Shown in pieces: positions 1,978 through 10,854 of a stretch of 30,186 nt of DNA (within the stretch, counting starts at the first letter, position 1; each line of letters starts with the position of its first letter). The stretch spans positions 1 through 30,186 of the IMG/VR virus record IMGVR_UViG_3300003789_000014, one strand, 5' to 3'. The position numbers and the translations under genes were made by a program. The notes below the pieces were generated by a model. That model was not told the DNA's origin. It was given only the letters and a program-made list of their open reading frames with translations, and did not search any database. This DNA is from a virus.

Positions 1978-3621
1978 ATGCGCGCCGCGCTCTATGCCCG
2001 TTTTTCATCCGACCTTCAGAACGTCGGGTCGATCGCCGATCAGTTCGCCGCCTGCCGGGCGCATGCCGCGCGGTTGGGCGCCGACGTCGTGGCGGAATAC
2101 AGCGACGCGGCGATCAGCGGCGCCTCCGCCGCCAACCGGCCCGGACTGATCGGCCTGTTGGCCGCCGCCAAGGCGGGCGCGATCGACGTGGTGATCGCCG
2201 AGGCGCTGGATCGCCTGACCCGTTCCGGCGGCGACGCGTGGGACATCTATGAGGATCTCCGCGCCTGCAACGTCACGATCAATACGATCGCGGAGGGGGA
2301 GGCGCAGACGTTGCACATCGGCCTCAAGGGCACGATGAACGCCCTGTTCCTAGAGGAACTGGCGCGCAAGACCCGGCGCGGCTTGTCCGGCGTGGCGCGG
2401 GATGGGCGATCCGCCGGTGGGCGGAGCTATGGCTACCAGGTGCGCCGCGAGCTGACTGAGGCGGGCGAGATTCGCGCGGGGCTGCGCTCCATCGATCCGG
2501 GGGAGGCCGCCATCGTGCGCCGCATCTTTCGGGAGTATGCGGCCGGCGCTTCGCCGCGCGCCATCGCCGGGCGGCTGAACTTGGAGGGCGTGCCGGGGCC
2601 GCGCGGCGGCCGGTGGAACGCCTCCACCATCAACGGCAACGCCCAGCGCGGCAACGGCGTGCTGCACAACGACCTATACCGAGGCGTTCAGGTGTGGGGC
2701 CGTCAGACTTGGACCAAGGATCGCCGGACCGGCACGCGCCGCGCTAGGGCGGCCGCAGAAGCCGACCGCGTGACCACGGCGGTGCCGGAGCTCCGGATCG
2801 TCGATGACGCCCTGTGGGACGCTGTGCAGCGCCGCCTGGCCAGCGTGGCGCACCCGATGACCCCGGGCGCTGTGCGACGGCCGAAGGGGCTGCTGTCAGG
2901 CCTGGTGCGCTGTGGCGTGTGCACGGGGGCGATGACCCTCAGCGGTCCCGATCGCCGGTTCCGCTGCAACGGCCGGGCGGAAGGATCGGGCTGCACCAAC
3001 ACCCGCACGGCGCGGGGCGCCGACGTGGAGGCTCGCGTCTTGGCCGCCATCCGCGACAACCTGTTGCACCCCGCCGTGATCGAGGCGGCGGTGGCCGAAT
3101 ATGTAACGGAGAAGGGGCGCCAGCGCGCGATCGCGTTACATAACGACGCCGCCGTGAGGCGCGAGCTGGACGAGGTGAAGCGCCGCGCCGCGCGCCTGAT
3201 CGACCAGGTGGCCGATGGCGTGCTGACCGGGGCGGCGATTAAGGATCGGTTGGGGGAGTTGGAGACGCGCAGGGCAGCGCTCGAAGCGCGCCTGGACAAT
3301 CGACCGAGCGCCGATGTGGTCGACCTGCATCCCGCCATCGCCCAGCGCTATCGCCGGCTGGTGGAGGATCTGCAGGCGGGGCTCGATGGCGAGCCGACCG
3401 TGGAGCGAGCCGAAGCCCGCAAAGCGCTGCGCACGCTGATCGCCGGAATCCGGCTCATCCCGGCAGAGGGCCGGGGCAATTACGAACTTGAATTAGAAGG
3501 GGATTTAGCAACCCTCCTCCGGCTGAACAGCCAAGAGGAGGGAGTTAGGGTATCGATGGGTGCGGGGACGCGATGTGGTCGATACCCTAACTCGCCCATT
3601 CTGGTGAAGTTGAGTGCCTGA
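1978..3621 (+). CDS. large serine recombinase / phage integrase, 547 aa
   Basis: Site-specific recombinase of the large serine family, expected to integrate and excise the phage by cutting attP and attB through a phosphoserine intermediate. The resolvase domain (about residues 1-145) opens with LYARFSSDLQ; by the family pattern YxRxS the nucleophile is S10, with conserved arginines R8 and R79 (in LDRLTRSGGD). A recombinase domain follows (about 150-260). A zinc ribbon has C312, C315, C330 and C339, and a helical coiled-coil-like segment covers about 385-440. The length is normal for the family. ATG 1978 is six bases after the upstream gene. The last 25 codons run through a perfect inverted repeat at 3542-3593. 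The gene converges on the late operon, with a terminator hairpin between them. Confidence 0.96.
   Translation: MRAALYARFSSDLQNVGSIADQFAACRAHAARLGADVVAEYSDAAISGASAANRPGLIGLLAAAKAGAIDVVIAEALDRLTRSGGDAWDIYEDLRACNVTINTIAEGEAQTLHIGLKGTMNALFLEELARKTRRGLSGVARDGRSAGGRSYGYQVRRELTEAGEIRAGLRSIDPGEAAIVRRIFREYAAGASPRAIAGRLNLEGVPGPRGGRWNASTINGNAQRGNGVLHNDLYRGVQVWGRQTWTKDRRTGTRRARAAAEADRVTTAVPELRIVDDALWDAVQRRLASVAHPMTPGAVRRPKGLLSGLVRCGVCTGAMTLSGPDRRFRCNGRAEGSGCTNTRTARGADVEARVLAAIRDNLLHPAVIEAAVAEYVTEKGRQRAIALHNDAAVRRELDEVKRRAARLIDQVADGVLTGAAIKDRLGELETRRAALEARLDNRPSADVVDLHPAIAQRYRRLVEDLQAGLDGEPTVERAEARKALRTLIAGIRLIPAEGRGNYELELEGDLATLLRLNSQEEGVRVSMGAGTRCGRYPNSPILVKLSA
3542..3593. other. perfect 15-bp inverted repeat in the recombinase 3' end; candidate attP site
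   Basis: GAGTTAGGGTATCGA at 3542-3556 is repeated exactly in inverted orientation at 3579-3593, with a 22-base spacer. The total span is 52 bp and the centre falls between G3567 and A3568. Attachment sites of large serine integrases are about 50 bp, are imperfect inverted repeats around a central dinucleotide, and usually lie beside the integrase gene; this element has that size, symmetry and position. The spacer halves show only weak symmetry. No T-run follows, so it is not a normal intrinsic terminator. It overlaps recombinase codons 522-539. Assignment as attP is inference. Confidence 0.5.
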
Positions 3622-3630
3622 AACGCAAAA

Positions 3631-3657
3631 CGCCCCCGGCCGGGGTGGCCGGGGGCG
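3631..3657 (-). terminator. intrinsic terminator between the convergent recombinase and late operons
   Basis: CGCCCCCGGCC (3631-3641) pairs perfectly with GGCCGGGGGCG (3647-3657) across a 5-base loop. Read on the - strand the stem is followed by TTTTGCGTTT, the usual U-rich tail, so it should end the late operon transcript. Read on the + strand it lacks a good T-run, but the hairpin lies only ten bases past the recombinase stop and may still stabilise or weakly terminate that message. Confidence 0.8.
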
Positions 3658-3688
3658 TCAGAGCTCGAAATCGAAGAAATTGACCGCC

Positions 3689-3898
3689 TTAGAAATTCCG
3701 GAACGGCCGCACCGGATCGATGCGCCCGACGACCTTTTCACCAATGACAAATTCGACGGTTCGCCCCGAAGCGACGATCTCAACCGCTTGGCGGTGCCTA
3801 TCATCAAGCATCCGCCGAATGTCTGCCGTGACGGGCAAGTAGGCCGCATCGATCTCGGCTTGAGAGGGCATCCGGTAGGGCATCAGTTTTTCGACCAT
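3689..3898 (-). CDS. hypothetical protein at the end of the late operon, 69 aa
   Basis: This is the last gene of the - strand operon, lying between the outer spanin and the terminator. The 69-residue product has balanced composition (PSQAEIDAAYLPVTADIRRMLDDRHRQAVEIVASG, split here only for description) and reads as a helical N-terminal half with a short beta-like end (TVEFVIGEKVVGRI). It looks more protein-like than the overlapping frames on either strand. No clear Shine-Dalgarno precedes the ATG at 3898; internal ATGs at residues 6 and 10 are alternatives. I do not recognise it. Being downstream of lysis genes, it may be an accessory gene, but that is only context. Confidence 0.5.
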   Translation of the reverse strand: MVEKLMPYRMPSQAEIDAAYLPVTADIRRMLDDRHRQAVEIVASGRTVEFVIGEKVVGRIDPVRPFRNF

Positions 3899-3927
3899 GA
3901 GGAGATTCTAACCCCGTTCGAGGCCCT

Positions 3928-4284
3928 TTAAAAGGGCCACCACCATTTCCGTTTCGGCTTCAGCGCGGTTTGCGCTTCGGCTTTGGCGGCTTCGCATTTG
4001 GTGACGATGTCCACCACGTCGGACGTGTGACCGTTGGCCATGTCCAACCGCCCGGTCTGGGCGTCGGCGAAGCCCCACACTTGGCCGGCGTCCGCATCGG
4101 CCGGCGGCAGGGGCGCGCCGGCGACGGGCGCCTTGAGCCGATCAGGGACGAGGCTTGCGCAGTTGAACGCAGGTTGGATCGTTGGCGTAGGCGGCATAGT
4201 CGCACAACCCGCGACGGGCAGCATCATTGACGCTGCGAGCCACCGGAGCATCGTGCCCCGGCGTAGTCTGTAAAACCCGCGCAT
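3928..4284 (-). CDS. outer-membrane lipoprotein spanin (Rz1-like), 118 aa
   Basis: Predicted o-spanin, which acts with the inner-membrane spanin to disrupt the outer membrane after endolysin has cut the wall. The N-terminus is a lipoprotein signal ending in the lipobox VAGC, with C27 as the lipidated residue. Residue 28 is alanine rather than aspartate, which predicts outer-membrane sorting. The mature part is proline-rich near its start (PPTPTIQP, PLPPADA), as in Rz1 proteins, and carries C42 and C97. The gene overlaps the i-spanin gene by 143 bases in another frame, the classic Rz/Rz1 layout. An AGGAG six bases before the ATG at 4284 supports this start. The tail KRKWWWPF is unusual: basic residues followed by three tryptophans. 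Confidence 0.8.
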   Translation of the reverse strand: MRGFYRLRRGTMLRWLAASMMLPVAGCATMPPTPTIQPAFNCASLVPDRLKAPVAGAPLPPADADAGQVWGFADAQTGRLDMANGHTSDVVDIVTKCEAAKAEAQTALKPKRKWWWPF

Positions 4285-4570
4285 GGGCGGCTCCTGTGGC
4301 TTGAATGGCGGCGTCGCGGTCGGCGCCCTTGGAGACGACGCCGGCGGCGTCTGTGGCGGCCTGGGCGTCGCCCTTGGCCACGGTGGCGGCGGCCTTGGCG
4401 CCCACCACCTGAACCCCTTGGCGTTGGATCACCGCGCCGTCGTGGCGCACCATCACTACCAGGAATATGATGGTTAGGATCACCAGGCCCGCGCCGATGT
4501 ACGGCCAGTTCTTAGGGGTTCCGCCCCAGCGCAGCGCGCCGGCGCCCCAGGCGATGAGGAAAGCGGGCAT
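4142..4570 (-). CDS. inner-membrane spanin (Rz-like), 142 aa
   Basis: Predicted i-spanin. It has one N-terminal transmembrane helix (about residues 22-41, WPYIGAGLVILTIIFLVVMV) with a short cytoplasmic lead. A periplasmic region follows that is rich in alanine, glutamine and charged residues, as expected of a helical Rz ectodomain. The C-terminus contains two cysteines (C123 and C134) that could pair with each other or with the outer spanin. The start at 4570 is three bases after the nuclease stop. Its 3' part overlaps the Rz1-like gene out of frame. Sequence similarity to lambda Rz is not obvious, so the call rests on topology, overlap and cassette position. Confidence 0.75.
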   Translation of the reverse strand: MPAFLIAWGAGALRWGGTPKNWPYIGAGLVILTIIFLVVMVRHDGAVIQRQGVQVVGAKAAATVAKGDAQAATDAAGVVSKGADRDAAIQATGAAHARVLQTTPGHDAPVARSVNDAARRGLCDYAAYANDPTCVQLRKPRP

Positions 4571-4573
4571 GGG

Positions 4574-5416
4574 CTATTCTCCCGTCTTGCACGGCCGGGG
4601 CGCGATCGGGTGCGGCCGGGGTTTCAGCGGCGTGACGGCGGCGGGCGTGGCCTTGGCGGCGTCGTCCAGGGCCGGGAACGGATCGAACCCGATCAGCTGC
4701 ACCAGCTCGGCAATCGACACCACAGCCACCACGCCCGACGCGTCGTTTTGCGCCACAAAGGCCCAGGCGCCGAGTTTGGGGTCATAGACCGCCTTCCACG
4801 TCACCCTGGGCACGGCCACGCGGGCGTTGAGCAACGCCGGCGGATCGGCAAACGCCGGTCCGGTGACGATCCACACCTCGCCGTCGGCGATGGCCAGGCC
4901 GCGCACCTCGGCTTCGATCTCAGCCCACAGGCCTTCGTTCAGCTCCGGCGCCTGCGGAACCATGTTGGCGAGGCTGAAGGTCTCGCCCTTGTCGCGATCC
5001 GCGCCGAAGTCGCCGACCGGGGTCATGTGGCCGCGATCGAACGGGGCGCAGTGATAATCCGCCAGCTCCGCCCGATCGGCGGGCGCCAGCTGCGTTTCGG
5101 CGTGAAAGGTTCCGGTGCGCTTGGCGACCATGGCGGCCTTGGCGCCATCCGCCGTTAAGTGCTCCGCGCTCCACAGGGGATCACGCAGCGTGGGCGAATA
5201 GCCGACCACGAAGGCGTGGTAGCACAGGGCTATGGTCGCGCCCGGGGCGGCCGGCGGCGCGGCCTTATAGGTGAACTCCGGACATTGCACCGCCGCCGGC
5301 GCCGGCGTGGGCGACGGCGGCGCGACGGTCTGCGCAAAGGCGGGGTCGAAGTGGCAAGCGCTTAACGCCAGCCCAAAGGCAAGCGCCAGCGCGCCGAGGA
5401 TACGGCGGTGGGTCAT
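4574..5416 (-). CDS. lipoprotein DNA/RNA non-specific endonuclease (NucA/Serratia-nuclease type), 280 aa
   Basis: Sugar-non-specific nuclease of the beta-beta-alpha-metal class. It shows the family signature DRGHMTP (D127-P133), with H130 as the expected general base. ANMVPQ (N151, Q155) and LNEGLWAEIE follow, where N160 and E168 match the Mg-ligand asparagine and the conserved glutamate of Serratia nuclease (DRGH, N119 and E127 there). The N-terminus is a lipoprotein signal with lipobox LSAC (C21), H22 after it, then a proline-rich tether (residues 32-42), so the enzyme should be anchored to the outer membrane facing the periplasm. The proline-rich C-terminus (264-276) is an extra tail. It lies between endolysin and spanins, 25 bases after the endolysin stop. 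Its role there is unknown: genome clearance at lysis or exclusion of incoming DNA are both possible. Confidence 0.88.
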   Translation of the reverse strand: MTHRRILGALALAFGLALSACHFDPAFAQTVAPPSPTPAPAAVQCPEFTYKAAPPAAPGATIALCYHAFVVGYSPTLRDPLWSAEHLTADGAKAAMVAKRTGTFHAETQLAPADRAELADYHCAPFDRGHMTPVGDFGADRDKGETFSLANMVPQAPELNEGLWAEIEAEVRGLAIADGEVWIVTGPAFADPPALLNARVAVPRVTWKAVYDPKLGAWAFVAQNDASGVVAVVSIAELVQLIGFDPFPALDDAAKATPAAVTPLKPRPHPIAPRPCKTGE

Positions 5417-5441
5417 AGGGTGATCCTGTTGCGGTGGAAGT

Positions 5442-6044
5442 TTAAGCCCAGATCGAACGGGCGTGAATCGTCGCCGCTTGGCGTTCGGCCAGGCCGTTCA
5501 GGCCGCCGTTGATCTTTTTGGTGACGCCTTCGATGTCGCCCGCATCGGCCAGCGGGATGCAGCCCTTGGACGCGAAGAAGGCGGCGGCGATCACGGCGGC
5601 GATCTCCGGCTCCGCCGCGCGGTCCGGGTGGGCGATCAGATCCACGGCGGTCCATTTGGACGCCACGGCGTAGTTGGCGCGGCCGGTGATCTGGATCAGG
5701 CCGCGCCCGCGATAGGTCCAACCGTCCGCCGGGCCGTGGTTGCCCAGCCGATCGCCATACAGCCGGCCGGCGATCACGACGGGGCCCTTGGCCGCCGCCT
5801 GCGTCGCGAGATCTAGCGTCGGGAACCGGGCCGGGAAGCCTTTTTTCAGAACTTCGGCGGTGTAATGAAGGTTCTCCTCGAACCGCGTCAGGCCGGTGCT
5901 TTCGACGAACACCTGACCCATGAACACACAAACGCGGGCGGCGGTGGTGATCCCTTGGGCGACGCACGCCGATTGCAGCGGCAAAGCCAGGCTCGCGGCG
6001 TCGCACCGGGGCGCGAACGCGCGAAGCGTGTCCGGCGTGATCAT
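5442..6044 (-). CDS. endolysin, glycoside hydrolase family 19 (chitinase-like), 200 aa
   Basis: Peptidoglycan-degrading lysozyme of the GH19 family. QVFVESTGLTRFEENLHYTA holds the expected catalytic glutamates (E48, and E56 or E57), and YRGRGLIQITGRANY (111-125) is the conserved substrate-cleft motif. The length is normal for a single-domain GH19 endolysin. There is no signal peptide or membrane anchor, so release should depend on a holin encoded just upstream. The start at 6044 overlaps the upstream stop as ATGA and is preceded by GGAG about nine bases away; a longer frame to 6128 would run through the upstream small membrane protein and is rejected. Confidence 0.9.
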   Translation of the reverse strand: MITPDTLRAFAPRCDAASLALPLQSACVAQGITTAARVCVFMGQVFVESTGLTRFEENLHYTAEVLKKGFPARFPTLDLATQAAAKGPVVIAGRLYGDRLGNHGPADGWTYRGRGLIQITGRANYAVASKWTAVDLIAHPDRAAEPEIAAVIAAAFFASKGCIPLADAGDIEGVTKKINGGLNGLAERQAATIHARSIWA

Positions 6045-6166
6045 GGCGTTTTCGCTCCATAGGCGAGGGCCGCCAGCACAAACGTCCAAGCCCCCAGGAC
6101 GACGATCAGGATCAGAACGCCGAGCCAAGGGCCGATGTAGTCGTCAAACAGGCCGCGCCGTTTCAT
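6041..6166 (-). CDS. 41-aa single-span membrane protein, holin/antiholin candidate
   Basis: A 41-residue frame with one strong hydrophobic helix (about residues 11-34, IGPWLGVLILIVVLGAWTFV) after a short basic start (MKRRGLF). It overlaps the upstream two-span gene and the endolysin by ATGA at both ends, showing it is translated as part of the cassette. The size and topology suit a pinholin, an antiholin or a small lysis regulator. Larger readings of this frame to 6418 are out-of-frame shadow of the neighbour. No sequence family is recognised. Confidence 0.65.
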   Translation of the reverse strand: MKRRGLFDDYIGPWLGVLILIVVLGAWTFVLAALAYGAKTP

Positions 6167-6486
6167 GGCGCCTCGCCCCGGCCCCGCAGCTCGAGATCGG
6201 CGCCCAGGCCAGACGCCTTCACCGTGCCGACCGTCGGCATCATGAGGGCGATGACGATCAGGATCAGACCGCCAAGCGCGAAGAACAGCGCCCAACCCAG
6301 ATAGTGAATCCGATCCTTGTCGTTCGGCGCGGTGACGGCCCACGGATGCAGCACCAGGGCCGCAACGATCACCAGCGCGATCACACCGCAAAACGCGCCG
6401 GCCAAAAGCAGCGTCCATTCGCTTTTGACGGTCGGGCGCTCCAGGCGCGAGGGCGCGCTTTCGCTGGGAGGCGACGGGTCGGTCAT
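6163..6486 (-). CDS. two-span membrane protein, probable holin, 107 aa
   Basis: The 107-residue product has two hydrophobic helices (about 24-46 and 62-83) joined by a short charged loop (APNDKDRIH). It has a polar proline/serine-rich N-terminus and a charged C-terminal tail (about 90-107). Small size, two membrane spans and position directly ahead of the endolysin fit a class II-like holin, which would trigger lysis by permeabilising the inner membrane. The ATG at 6486 is preceded by GGAG at a seven-base spacing. Which of the three adjacent membrane proteins is the actual holin cannot be decided from sequence. Confidence 0.65.
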   Translation of the reverse strand: MTDPSPPSESAPSRLERPTVKSEWTLLLAGAFCGVIALVIVAALVLHPWAVTAPNDKDRIHYLGWALFFALGGLILIVIALMMPTVGTVKASGLGADLELRGRGEAP

Positions 6487-6535
6487 CGAATGTCTCCGAG
6501 GATGGGATGCGAACGTCGCTCGCAGGGCGGCGCGG

Positions 6536-6922
6536 TTAGTGCGCCGTCAACAGCGCCTGGTGCAGCGTCGCGGCGAAGGCGACGACGGCGGGCTCCAATA
6601 TCTTGTAGACCAGCTGACCGCCCGGCACGGCGGCGACCACGGCCACGATCAACCCGCCGACCGCCATATGCGGGCTCAACCCGCCGACGCGCCGCCGTAC
6701 CTTGATCGGCGTCGCGCCGGGCTCCAGGTCTTTCGCCGTCAGCTCCGGAATGCCCAGGGCTTGAAGCACCATTGCCAAGTTGGCTTTGGTCACCGCCGAG
6801 TCGCCCGTCAGGGTATCGACCTGCGCCGCCGTCGCCTCCAGGCAATCGTGAAGCTCGCCAATCTGGTTCTGAAGGTCGACGTTTTTTGGGTTGGGTTTGC
6901 GTTCCAACTGGGTGACGGCCAT
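6536..6922 (-). CDS. membrane-associated lysis-region protein with N-terminal helix, 128 aa
   Basis: The start at 6922 is supported by GGAGG five bases upstream; longer frames reach back into the fibre gene. Residues 15-55 form a polar helical region (NVDLQNQIGELHDCLEATAAQVDTLTG, described in part), possibly a coiled coil. Then comes a basic patch (KVRRRVG) and a hydrophobic span at about 86-106, followed by a second hydrophobic stretch (109-125). This order, helical soluble part and then C-terminal membrane hairpin, is seen in some phage haemolysin/holin-accessory proteins, but I do not recognise the family. It is the first gene of the lysis segment after the tail fibre. Confidence 0.6.
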   Translation of the reverse strand: MAVTQLERKPNPKNVDLQNQIGELHDCLEATAAQVDTLTGDSAVTKANLAMVLQALGIPELTAKDLEPGATPIKVRRRVGGLSPHMAVGGLIVAVVAAVPGGQLVYKILEPAVVAFAATLHQALLTAH

Positions 6923-6943
6923 GGGCGCCTCCGGATCAATAGT

Positions 6944-6962
6944 CGGCGAACGCGGTTCGCCG
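6944..6962. repeat. palindromic word copy 1 (intergenic)
   Basis: CGGCGAACGCGGTTCGCCG, a perfect 8-bp inverted repeat with a 3-base loop, lies in the 56-base gap between the fibre gene and the next gene. On the - strand it contains the shared 16-mer CGAACCGCGTTCGCCG. No T-run follows on the - strand, so it is not a typical terminator. Four other copies of the core occur at 14752-14770, 16330-16348, 22645-22663 and 25317-25335. Confidence 0.85.
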
Positions 6963-6978
6963 GAAACAGCCGCTCGCC

Positions 6979-9900
6979 CTATTGCAAAACGCGCACGTTG
7001 TAGGTGGAGGCGGTTGGCGTTGCGCCGGTCGCCGCGCAGACCTTGACGGTCACAACCCCGGCCGCACTGACATAACCGTGCCAGTAGAAAGCATCGCCGG
7101 GATAGGTGGCGGGCGTAACTACAACCGCCATCGAGGTCGTCGCGCCGGTGACTGTGGCCGTTGTAGAGGCGCATGTGCCCGCCGACAAAGCCGACCCTCC
7201 TATGCTTGAGGTCGTGGCGCTGAACGTTGGGGTGATCGCCGCGCCGCCGGACGTTAGAACGCCGCCAACCGTGAGGGCGCCCGGAACGTTGACCAGGCCC
7301 GCCGACGATACAGTCAGCGCGTTGTTCGGCGCGTTGGCGGCGACAGAAAACGGAGTTTTGTTGTTGGTGGAGTCGTACAGTACATAGGCCGTACTGCCGA
7401 ATTCACCTTCGTACCAAACCTGCCCCGTGCCGTCGTGTCGGGTGGCCGAGTAATTGCTCAACGCGATGGTTTGCAGAAAGGCGGCTTTACCATTGGCGAG
7501 GTTGGTGAATGTTACAGTCATATCGGCGGCGGTCGCCGATGGTTGGCTGACAAGAAGCCTTGAGGCGCTTTCAGTCGATGTGCCGATCGAGACGTTTTGT
7601 GTGTTGGCGATATGCAATGCCGGCGCCAACGTTCCCGAAGCGTTCGCCGTTTGAATGTCGATCAACCCAGGGACAACACCTGACGCAATAGTGCCGGAGG
7701 AGCTGAAATTGATCTGCACGCTGCGAGACCAGGTCGTGCCGTCATAGCCCGCCGCCGTGATTTGCCCGATCAAATCTCCCGTGGTGATGACCGATGGATA
7801 TCCGACTGACGCTCCTCTGGCCTTAGCGAAATTAAGGCTTCCCGACGTCGGATCAGACGCCCAATTGATCGAGCCCAAGGCCGAATTGGCGAGGCTAGCA
7901 CCCTCAACCACAAAAACGGGATATCGATCAGTCAAAGATGGCGTCGAGGCCACCGCGCTGTTTCGGTTGACGAACACATTGCCGAAAGCGTCTACGGAAA
8001 ACGAACCGGTCGGCGCAGCCGCCGCGATCTTTAACGGTATCGTGCTGTTGGTAATGTCGTTGACTTGGAACGCAGTATTGCCGAATTGGCCGACCCGCCA
8101 TTCCTGCCCCAGCCCCGCGAAATCCGCGCCCGAATAGTTGGTGCTGGCCGTATAGGTTCGAACATAAGCGCCGTTGGTCGATGCGCCGTTGGTGATCGCC
8201 ATTATGGCGTCTGAACCGGCGGCGCTTTGATAGAGATCCAAGTTGAACGACGGTGTGCGCCCGATTCCGATTTTACCGTTGGCGGCGACATAAAGGGCGT
8301 TGCTGGGCGCGCCTTGGGCGATGGTCAGCGGCGTGGTCCCGCTCGTGATATCTTGAACCTGAAACGCCGTCGTCCCAAATTCGCCGACGGCCCAAGTTGC
8401 GCCGGTTCCATAATACCGTGAGCTGATATAATTGCTCGCGCCCGTCAGGTTTAAGTATGCGCCCTTAGAGCTCGCGGCGTTCGTCAGCCCGATAACCGCA
8501 TCGGTCGCTGAAGACGCGCTTTGATAGACGTCGAAATTGTAGATCGGCCCGCGGCCTAAACCTACAAATCCATTCGAAGTGATATTAACAGCGTTGGTCG
8601 GCGCGCCTTGAACAATGCTGAACGGGAATGTCGAGCTGGTGACATCTTCAATTTGGAACATTGTCGATCCAATTTGGCCCGCGCGCCATTGAGCGCCGGT
8701 TCCGAAATAGGCCGTGTTGCTGTAATTGCTGTTGGCGTTTGCAAGAAAGTAAGCACCGCGACCCGAAGCCGCATTAGTGATCGCCGAGTTAGCGTCGGCG
8801 TTCAGCGTCGATGCTGCGTAAGCGTCGAAATTATAGGTCGGTATGCGGCCCAGGCCTATGAACCCCGTTGGACCAATATTGATTGCGTTGGTCGGCGCGC
8901 CTTGATTAATTACCAAGGGATAAGTGCCGTTGGTAATATCTTGAAACTGAAACGCCGTGCTGCCGAATTCACCGACGCCCCAGGTGGCGCCCGTACCGGC
9001 ATATTGAGAATTCACATAATTGCTGCCGGCCGCCGCGAGCCAAATCGCTGCACGTCCCGAAACACCGTTGTGCACCCGCGCTGTAATGTCTGACGCGGCG
9101 GTCTTGTTATCCACGTCAAGGGGATAAGCCGGAGTGTTCGTGCCGATCCCGACACTACCTTGAACGGCTAGGCCGTTACTGGGCGCCGGGGCGCCGCTAA
9201 ACCCTGTCCCAGATCCAATCGCGATACCGCTGTATCCAATCGCCACGTCGCCGCCGATATTCAGCGGACCGGAATTTGGAAAGGCGATAGCGCCATTGAC
9301 CGCGTCGCTATAGGGCGTCGTAAACGACGAGCCGGCAGGTACGCTGTTATATTGAATACCAGAAAAACTTTGCAGGGTATCACCCACACCACCTGTGTAC
9401 ACTAGGTAAGGCGGCGTATATTGACCCGATATCTGAATATTATGAATGATCGACGCATTGTAAATATGCCCCGATCCGAGCATGACAAATAAACCCTGAC
9501 CCGCCGTCGTGTTTGACGCTGTGTAAATCGTACTATCGTCAACAATAACAGACGCCGCCGAAGACATGTAAATGTAAGGCGCGGTCGGTTGTTCAAAGTG
9601 AATAAAGTGAAACTCCGCGACGATCTGTGTGCCGCAAACCGCGCCAGTCGTTCCGCCTGAGCCATTATAGTCGAAATGACCGTTTTCAAAGCCCCAATTG
9701 TTATACGCAAGGCTGTTTACGCCGCAGTGAGCGTTGTCATAAATGTTAAAGCCCGACACTTTCATCAACTCACCGGCATTGTCCTGACCTCCCGGATCAA
9801 AAATGCCGTCGTAATTGTCGTGAAGGTGAATGCCTGTCAGGTTGATCGCCCAGACGTTATTTCCATAAGTATAGCCGCTCTTAAACCCGGAAATGTCAAC

Positions 9901-10854
9901 GTTCTGCAGGTTCAGAAACGGGCCCCAATAAGTGGACGGGCTAAGCGCGCCCGCCGGGTCGCCGCCGGAATAAACGCCGATATTCGTGTTGCCGGCGCTA
10001 TAACCCGCCGAGTGATGAATTCGACAATCGCGAATTGTCGGCATGGTATAGGTTGTGGCGGCTGTAAAAGTCGGTTCCGCAGCAACAATCGCTGCGCCGG
10101 TCGTGGGCGTGTAATTCAACATCGCCCCTTGGCAATCCAAAAGGATATTGTACGGAACAACAGCAGTCGTGCTGTAAGAATAATCCTGATACGGGTCAAT
10201 AATAACTTTATAAGATTTACCCGTTCCTACATAGGCTACTGCCGCATTGATCCAAGCGCCAATATCGGAACCTGCGCACCAGCTGGGAGCCGACGCGTAG
10301 CCACAAGCCGAGGCGTTCACCACGCCGGCCAGGTTTTGCAGCGCCGTCGCTGCGTCCTTCGCACCGACACCGCCCTGCGCAATCGCCAAAGGCGTGGTCA
10401 AGCCAGTGATCGCTGTAATGTCCGAATTAGAACCGCTTTTCGCCGCGCCTAAATTCGCCCTGGCAGTCGTCGAGCTGGCGACATCAGACAGGTTTGCGGC
10501 CTTAGCCAAGGCCGCCGCCGCCGCCGTGGCTGCAGCGCCTGCCGGATCAAAAGCCGATGAGGGTTGCGTCGCCGCACTATCTAAGCCGAGCGCGGTCCGC
10601 GCGGCCGGAGCGGTTGTCGCTCCCGTGCCGCCTTCGTTGATTGCAACAGGCGTGGTCAAGCCATTGAGGCTTGTAATGTCGGAATTCGCGCCCGACTTAG
10701 CGGCGCCCAGGTTGGTACGCGCCGTTGCCGGATTGGCGACATCGCCGAGATTTTGCGCTTTGTAAAGCGGCGGCCCAATCGTTGTTTGGGCCGCTACAAC
10801 GCTGGCAAGCAGACATAGGGCCGCAGCCCATGTAAACGGGTGACGCCGAGCCAT
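6979..10854 (-). CDS. large repetitive tail fibre / tailspike, receptor-binding candidate, 1291 aa
   Basis: Largest protein of the window, likely the main adhesin. The first 22 residues look like a Sec signal peptide (basic start, hydrophobic core WAAALCLLASVV, cleavage near A22), which is odd for a virion fibre. Two copies of a fibre motif follow (TARTNLGAAKSG and TARANLGAAKSG, each with a GGTGA/GGVGA-like turn). Residues about 200-540 read as a right-handed beta-helix (short strands, asparagine turns, IRDCRIHH, GIHLHDNYDGI), as in pectate-lyase-like spikes; depolymerase activity is possible but unproven. From about 565 come five modules of about 97 residues, with one unrelated fibre module between the fourth and fifth. 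The C-terminal 85 residues (TPTFSATTSSIGG onwards) form a separate terminal domain. AGGAG, overlapping the upstream stop, precedes the ATG. Confidence 0.88.
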   Translation of the reverse strand: MARRHPFTWAAALCLLASVVAAQTTIGPPLYKAQNLGDVANPATARTNLGAAKSGANSDITSLNGLTTPVAINEGGTGATTAPAARTALGLDSAATQPSSAFDPAGAAATAAAAALAKAANLSDVASSTTARANLGAAKSGSNSDITAITGLTTPLAIAQGGVGAKDAATALQNLAGVVNASACGYASAPSWCAGSDIGAWINAAVAYVGTGKSYKVIIDPYQDYSYSTTAVVPYNILLDCQGAMLNYTPTTGAAIVAAEPTFTAATTYTMPTIRDCRIHHSAGYSAGNTNIGVYSGGDPAGALSPSTYWGPFLNLQNVDISGFKSGYTYGNNVWAINLTGIHLHDNYDGIFDPGGQDNAGELMKVSGFNIYDNAHCGVNSLAYNNWGFENGHFDYNGSGGTTGAVCGTQIVAEFHFIHFEQPTAPYIYMSSAASVIVDDSTIYTASNTTAGQGLFVMLGSGHIYNASIIHNIQISGQYTPPYLVYTGGVGDTLQSFSGIQYNSVPAGSSFTTPYSDAVNGAIAFPNSGPLNIGGDVAIGYSGIAIGSGTGFSGAPAPSNGLAVQGSVGIGTNTPAYPLDVDNKTAASDITARVHNGVSGRAAIWLAAAGSNYVNSQYAGTGATWGVGEFGSTAFQFQDITNGTYPLVINQGAPTNAINIGPTGFIGLGRIPTYNFDAYAASTLNADANSAITNAASGRGAYFLANANSNYSNTAYFGTGAQWRAGQIGSTMFQIEDVTSSTFPFSIVQGAPTNAVNITSNGFVGLGRGPIYNFDVYQSASSATDAVIGLTNAASSKGAYLNLTGASNYISSRYYGTGATWAVGEFGTTAFQVQDITSGTTPLTIAQGAPSNALYVAANGKIGIGRTPSFNLDLYQSAAGSDAIMAITNGASTNGAYVRTYTASTNYSGADFAGLGQEWRVGQFGNTAFQVNDITNSTIPLKIAAAAPTGSFSVDAFGNVFVNRNSAVASTPSLTDRYPVFVVEGASLANSALGSINWASDPTSGSLNFAKARGASVGYPSVITTGDLIGQITAAGYDGTTWSRSVQINFSSSGTIASGVVPGLIDIQTANASGTLAPALHIANTQNVSIGTSTESASRLLVSQPSATAADMTVTFTNLANGKAAFLQTIALSNYSATRHDGTGQVWYEGEFGSTAYVLYDSTNNKTPFSVAANAPNNALTVSSAGLVNVPGALTVGGVLTSGGAAITPTFSATTSSIGGSALSAGTCASTTATVTGATTSMAVVVTPATYPGDAFYWHGYVSAAGVVTVKVCAATGATPTASTYNVRVLQ
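7288..9160 (-). repeat. five tandem ~97-residue modules in the fibre gene
   Basis: Each module runs from VGIG/IGLG through N..SGRGAY, SNY, TGA.W..GEFGSTAFQ..DIT and P..I.QGAPTNAV. Approximate extents are 8870-9160, 8575-8868, 8278-8574, 7984-8277 and, after a non-homologous insert (about 7605-7983), 7288-7602. The period is about 294 bases, and short DNA stretches such as GTTGGTCGGCGCGCCTTG recur exactly in two modules. The first four are more alike than the fifth. Likely origin is duplication with later replacement of one unit. Confidence 0.85.

Follow-up and report, generated by a model that had tools for sequence, protein, structure and literature searches.

A predicted secreted nuclease encoded among the lysis genes of a Gram-negative phage

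Lysis by phages of Gram-negative bacteria is usually described in three steps, directed at the inner membrane, the wall and the outer membrane. To our knowledge, the viscous chromosome that is spilled is rarely treated as something that the phage manages. The locus described here, in which the gene for a predicted secreted nuclease lies among lysis genes, raises the question of whether that nuclease serves lysis or is merely carried there.

The window, by which we mean the whole stretch of DNA analysed, comprises the 30,186 bases of an IMG/VR virus record and carries the late genes of a myovirus (sheath, baseplate, tape measure, capsid, portal and terminase) on the minus strand. The nearest terminase found is that of a Sinorhizobium phage (48.5%). 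A serine recombinase of integrase type, pointing to a temperate phage, is located at the left end, next to the lysis end. Another locus, L002, is identical to the window for 10,416 bp and can in effect be taken as the same virus. Elsewhere in the window, a tail-fibre protein of 1291 aa (6979-10854) contains several tandem copies of a unit of about 95 residues, for example ASGRGAYFLANANSNYSNTAYFGTGAQWRAGQIGSTMFQIEDVTSSTFPFSIVQGAPTNAVNI, and a 102 bp stretch at 1195-1296, under Gp37/Gp68-family and HTH genes, is 84.6% identical to Rhizobium phage RR1-A. The features with which the argument is concerned are the following.

1978..3621, plus strand: large serine recombinase (integrase); Pfam Resolvase, Recombinase and Zn_ribbon_recom, phrog_95 at 5.1e-81
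3629..3659, minus strand: intrinsic-terminator-like hairpin of 13 pairs, closing the operon; consensus match only
3928..4284, minus strand: o-spanin-like lipoprotein with lipobox VAGC; topology and overlapping-gene layout
4142..4570, minus strand: i-spanin-like protein, 142 aa, one N-terminal transmembrane (TM) segment; topology and position only
4574..5416, minus strand: secreted DRGH-type DNA/RNA non-specific nuclease, 280 aa; Pfam PF01223, invariant residues, AlphaFold2 model and Foldseek
5442..6044, minus strand: GH19-type endolysin, starting from the ATG at 6044 (as listed, with a TTG start, the ORF extends to 6128); phrog_181 at 8.9e-70
6041..6166, minus strand: possible accessory holin or antiholin, 41 aa, single TM segment; topology only
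6163..6486, minus strand: holin candidate, 107 aa, two hydrophobic segments; topology only
6536..6922, minus strand: 128-aa protein encoded upstream of the lysis genes, hydrophobic segment at the C terminus; topology

The nuclease gene and its operon

The nuclease ORF is intact, with an ATG start. Its product matches Pfam PF01223 (Endonuclease_NS) with E=4.2e-38 and 131.7 bits, above the curated cutoff of 23, as well as phrog_14168, 'nuclease', at 1.2e-30. The DRGH motif spans D127 to H130 and, with N160 and E168, makes up a complete catalytic set; in an alignment of 26 nuclease sequences R128, G129, H130, N160 and E168 are invariant. The AlphaFold2 model (mean pLDDT 86.8) has as its top Foldseek match in the PDB the Serratia marcescens endonuclease, 1ql0 (E=1.3e-15, TM 0.66/0.76), and model and match agree with the beta-beta-alpha-metal fold of Endonuclease_NS. 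The sequence-only reading, which had proposed a complete NucA-type nuclease with H130, N160 and E168, is borne out by the family match, the invariance of these residues and the Serratia-like model.

The Serratia nuclease (NucA or Sm endonuclease) resembles the window protein in family, fold, DRGH/Asn/Glu set and secretion, with about 23% of residues identical when the structures are aligned. It is, however, the product of a host gene, whereas the window protein is encoded by a phage within an endolysin-spanin operon and has a lipobox. The Serratia gene is itself linked to a prophage through nucC, nucD and nucE: its activator is a P2 Ogr-like factor from a cryptic prophage, and the holin and lysozyme genes of that prophage help to release the nuclease. 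The window protein would appear to be an ordinary member of Endonuclease_NS in a new setting.

The lysis region runs in the order 128-aa membrane-type protein, two-TM holin candidate, 41-aa TM ORF, GH19 endolysin, nuclease, i- and o-spanin-like genes and terminator-like hairpin. The endolysin assignment is firm on its profile match, the Pfam Glyco_hydro_19 match being below cutoff; lacking a signal peptide, the enzyme would be released by the holin. The o-spanin-like gene overlaps the i-spanin-like gene by 143 bp in a different frame and matches phrog_29557 (unknown function) at 6e-4. Pfam and PHROG profile searches found no named spanin family for either 4142-4570 or 3928-4284, and both are called spanin-like by topology only.

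Endolysin and nuclease are separated by 25 bp, and the nuclease stop precedes the i-spanin-like start by 3 bp. A consensus scan between endolysin, nuclease and spanin-like genes found neither a promoter nor a terminator of the nuclease's own, and its GC3 and codon score resemble those of the neighbouring genes. Within 3500-7100 a single terminator-like hairpin was found against 3.3 expected in shuffles, again by consensus match only. The nuclease thus appears, from this layout, to share one transcription unit with the endolysin and spanin-like genes, as had been claimed from the first reading, with the spanins identified by topology. Judged by sequence, both the identity of the nuclease and its membership of the lysis operon are secure.

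Export is indicated by a hydrophobic stretch followed by a lipobox, L18-S19-A20-C21 (LSAC), which fits the pattern [LVI][ASTVI][GAS]C; the +2 residue after C21 is His, not Asp. Since a signal-peptidase-I-like site, AFA before Q29, lies downstream of the lipobox, lipidation at C21 is likely rather than certain. The proline tether noted earlier is real, in the form of a proline-rich linker at around residues 32-41.

Recurrence of the arrangement

The order of endolysin, nuclease and spanin recurs in L003, a divergent siphovirus with an HK97-type capsid and protease. Its endolysin is 52-53% and its nuclease 53% identical to those of the window, and otherwise the two share one weak match in the early region (27.6%). 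In L003 the nuclease stop and the ATG of the following gene overlap. This gene, an Rz-like spanin gene, matches phrog_8821 (Rz-like spanins) at 4e-7, contains an o-spanin-like ORF and is the positional counterpart of the i-spanin-like gene of the window. A related myovirus, L181 (sheath 59%, recombinase 63% and nuclease 54% identical to the window), keeps the pair of endolysin and nuclease; a lipoprotein gene follows downstream, and no i-spanin was recognised beside the nuclease.

The nucleases of the window, L003 and L181 form one clade (support 100/99), and the tree relatives outside it are not known from an endolysin context. The association of endolysin with nuclease therefore appears, on gene order and phylogeny, to be kept across divergent phages. 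Among the annotated phages whose genome contexts were opened, none has the order endolysin, nuclease, spanin, and the literature searched yielded no publication on a nuclease inside a Gram-negative lysis cassette.

The lipobox is not conserved across this clade. It is confined to the window and its twin L002; the L003 nuclease has AFSC and then a downstream site, ASA before AP, in what is an ordinary cleavable signal of the signal-peptidase-I type, and that of L181 has a short signal of the same type. An outer-membrane tether is therefore optional and not essential to the role of the clade: the earlier description of the protein as a lipoprotein holds for the lipobox at C21 in the window but does not extend to the anchor as a general feature. 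Four cysteines, C45, C65, C123 and C276, are common to the clade alignment and would be fitting in the oxidising periplasm. In the three lysis-linked nucleases C123 lies within a 'DYxCA' motif, where most relatives have 'SG', and C276 belongs to a C-terminal RxC motif; C123 and C276 may possibly form a clade-specific disulfide.

Away from this clade the picture changes. Other viral relatives of the nuclease mostly have no lysis genes next to them, and the idea that DRGH nucleases at large go with lysis was rejected, there being no peptidoglycan hydrolase near the 40 representatives outside the clade among the 25 of 37 Pfam families listed. The sole, loose link is in L032-L036, where a GH19 endolysin lies downstream behind a thioredoxin gene. 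Jumbo phages of Klebsiella and Xanthomonas (K64-1, RaK2 and XaC1), likewise Gram-negative systems, encode PF01223-type proteins annotated 'periplasmic DNA/RNA non-specific endonuclease' with 37-39% identity but, unlike that of the window, these are not beside annotated endolysin or spanin genes. The clade was absent from 385 sampled alphaproteobacterial genomes (repeat sampling drew largely the same genomes), where the best identity was 47%, and no GH19 endolysin was seen in the fetched flanks of the alphaproteobacterial relatives.

Thioredoxin-like genes directly adjoin secreted nucleases both of this family and of the one described below (L032:6581-6838, L034-L036, L235:2619-2927, L240:2604-2912 and L297:337-588). 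In L032-L036 the thioredoxin-like gene stands between the DRGH nuclease and the GH19 endolysin.

These distributions bear on whether the gene could be cargo, that is, a bacterial secreted nuclease acquired near the integrase end, with no part in lysis and, after release, perhaps of use for the nutrition of the host or in competition. Chromosomes and plasmids commonly carry relatives of the nuclease, and the ends of prophages adjoining lysis genes are usual sites for cargo. The nuclease is also optional, since of the 80 nearest endolysin loci that were fetched just two carry a DRGH nuclease, L101 (the window twin) and L102 (the same as L003). Cargo would, however, sit poorly with the same position in three divergent phages, the tight coupling to the neighbouring genes, the lack of a promoter or terminator of its own in the consensus scan and the neighbour-like codon use, to which the second secreted family in comparable positions can be added. 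We regard this explanation as rather unlikely and agree with the first reading that the gene belongs to the lysis operon and is not there as random cargo. Transfer of endolysin and nuclease as a unit was also considered and is suggestive only, the endolysin tree not resolving the nuclease-bearing phages as one clade.

A second secreted family beside endolysins

In L106/L217 an endolysin 51% identical to that of the window is followed, 13 bp downstream, by a gene for a 167-aa signal-peptide protein with a D-H...GG...N-L-W motif. The protein is unrelated to the DRGH nuclease and occupies the slot next to the endolysin in related GH19 lysis regions. The members located are as follows.

L106, 4620-5123: HNH-like protein downstream of the GH19 endolysin
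L218, 4989-5459: HNH-like gene in a cassette that includes a SleB-type hydrolase, immediately preceding spanin-like genes
L219, 4857-5402: HNH-like gene after a lysozyme-like gene
L296, 2956-3438: HNH-like gene between a 127-aa protein and a GH19 endolysin
L221-L300: loci of further members

The 127-aa protein of L296 resembles the 128-aa protein of the window, as judged by eye. The name HNH-like is based on the invariant E-x-D-H...GG...D..NLW motif (E92, D94, H95, G102, D107 and N110 in the alignment), on a model (pLDDT 90) with a beta-beta-alpha element and on significant BFVD matches labelled HNHc. No assignment in Pfam, PHROG or NCBIfam was found for the family, nor a significant PDB fold match for the model, and two members had no match in the isolated-phage collection. 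From motif and model the family is predicted to be a putative nuclease. It is common in viral contigs, with the signature TICVHGW...E-x-DH...GG...NLW.

A scan gave 88 viral relatives, of which 80 were fetched and reduced to 37 representatives at 70% identity. Around a third of these (about 12 of the 37, with hydrolase families matched to loci partly by eye) have a peptidoglycan hydrolase gene no more than two genes away, and the hydrolases belong to several families. Those that Pfam identified among the nearest neighbours are CHAP (three), M15 (two) and Amidase_2, Glucosaminidase, GH25 and Hydrolase_2 (one each), while a GH19 profile made in this study added L221, L288 and L296 to the loci beside hydrolases. 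As a separate observation, L181:6752-7351 encodes a DUF1353 protein (PF07087) and another DUF1353 protein neighbours one HNH-like gene; DUF1353 proteins near lysis genes and secreted nucleases are a possible further component of the lysis region.

A nuclease in lysis

The leading reading, which we hold to be somewhat more probable than its negation, is that the nuclease is exported at a late stage and breaks down host nucleic acid when the cell lyses. It would be made along with the late lysis proteins and leave by the Sec pathway, which would keep it out of the cytoplasm, the site of phage DNA replication and packaging; separation from replicating phage DNA would then require no inhibitor gene. 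It would wait in the periplasm, where an outer-membrane tether probably holds it in the window phage, while in the relatives it is apparently soluble. Once holin, endolysin and spanins had opened the cell, the nuclease would meet the spilled chromosome and RNA and degrade both, virion DNA being shielded in capsids. Virions would then escape and diffuse faster from the viscous lysate, and fewer would be trapped in DNA-bound debris. Activity, late expression, localisation and benefit are in this way what we infer for the protein.

The first reading could recall no characterised example of such an enzyme, yet characterised secreted DNases of prophages do exist. The Campylobacter jejuni proteins Dns (CJE0256), CJE0566 and CJE1441 are prophage-encoded DRGH nucleases with signal peptides, about 25% identical to the window nuclease. 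Those of CJIE1, CJIE2 and CJIE4 block natural transformation, and no role in lysis is reported for them in the same two papers (PMC4372405, PMC3995785). They lend substance to a different explanation, in which a periplasmic nuclease destroys incoming superinfecting or transforming DNA and so protects the infected cell or lysogen; the window nuclease is predicted to be periplasmic, and an outer-membrane tether would suit interception. Protection of a lysogen, however, needs expression independent of the late genes, and no promoter was found upstream of the nuclease gene, which is locked between endolysin and spanin. The CJIE4 nucA instead directly follows and overlaps the repressor gene, as expected for a function expressed in the lysogen, whereas the window nuclease sits with lysis genes. 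Exclusion of incoming DNA is accordingly judged unlikely as the main role.

Least probable, and in our view distinctly so, is action after release, by which nucleic acid would be degraded to feed surviving kin or DNA-rich biofilm loosened for progeny: Campylobacter extracellular DNases, prophage-encoded ones included, do degrade biofilm (PMC4372405), but linkage to endolysin and spanin would not be needed, and such a function is hard to tell from clearing of the lysate.

Digestion of host nucleic acid at lysis has a precedent in Spd1, a secreted DNase encoded by a Streptococcus pyogenes prophage and characterised as a virulence factor (PMC7538557). Broudy et al. (2002), whose proposal is discussed in PMC2658872, suggested that this enzyme lowers lysate viscosity and eases phage diffusion. 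Its host is Gram-positive, with neither outer membrane nor spanins. The idea concerning viscosity and diffusion is thus already published, for Spd1; what appears to be new, from the gene neighbourhoods, is that the gene keeps its place within lysis cassettes of Gram-negative phages and that a second family, one without annotation, is used in parallel.

A broader proposal can be made tentatively, at a little under an even chance: that Gram-negative phages have a recurrent 'lysis nuclease' function, for which at least two unrelated secreted families, DRGH Endonuclease_NS and HNH-like, have been recruited independently beside many types of endolysin, to be exported before lysis and to destroy host nucleic acid. 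With a nuclease beside the endolysin in unrelated phages, and a second nuclease-like family, the old idea about viscosity becomes testable in a Gram-negative system. The unannotated secreted HNH-like family is worth attention both for its biology and as a possible tool to lower the viscosity of lysates. Taken together, the findings suggest that lysis can regularly include the shredding of the host nucleic acid that is spilled.
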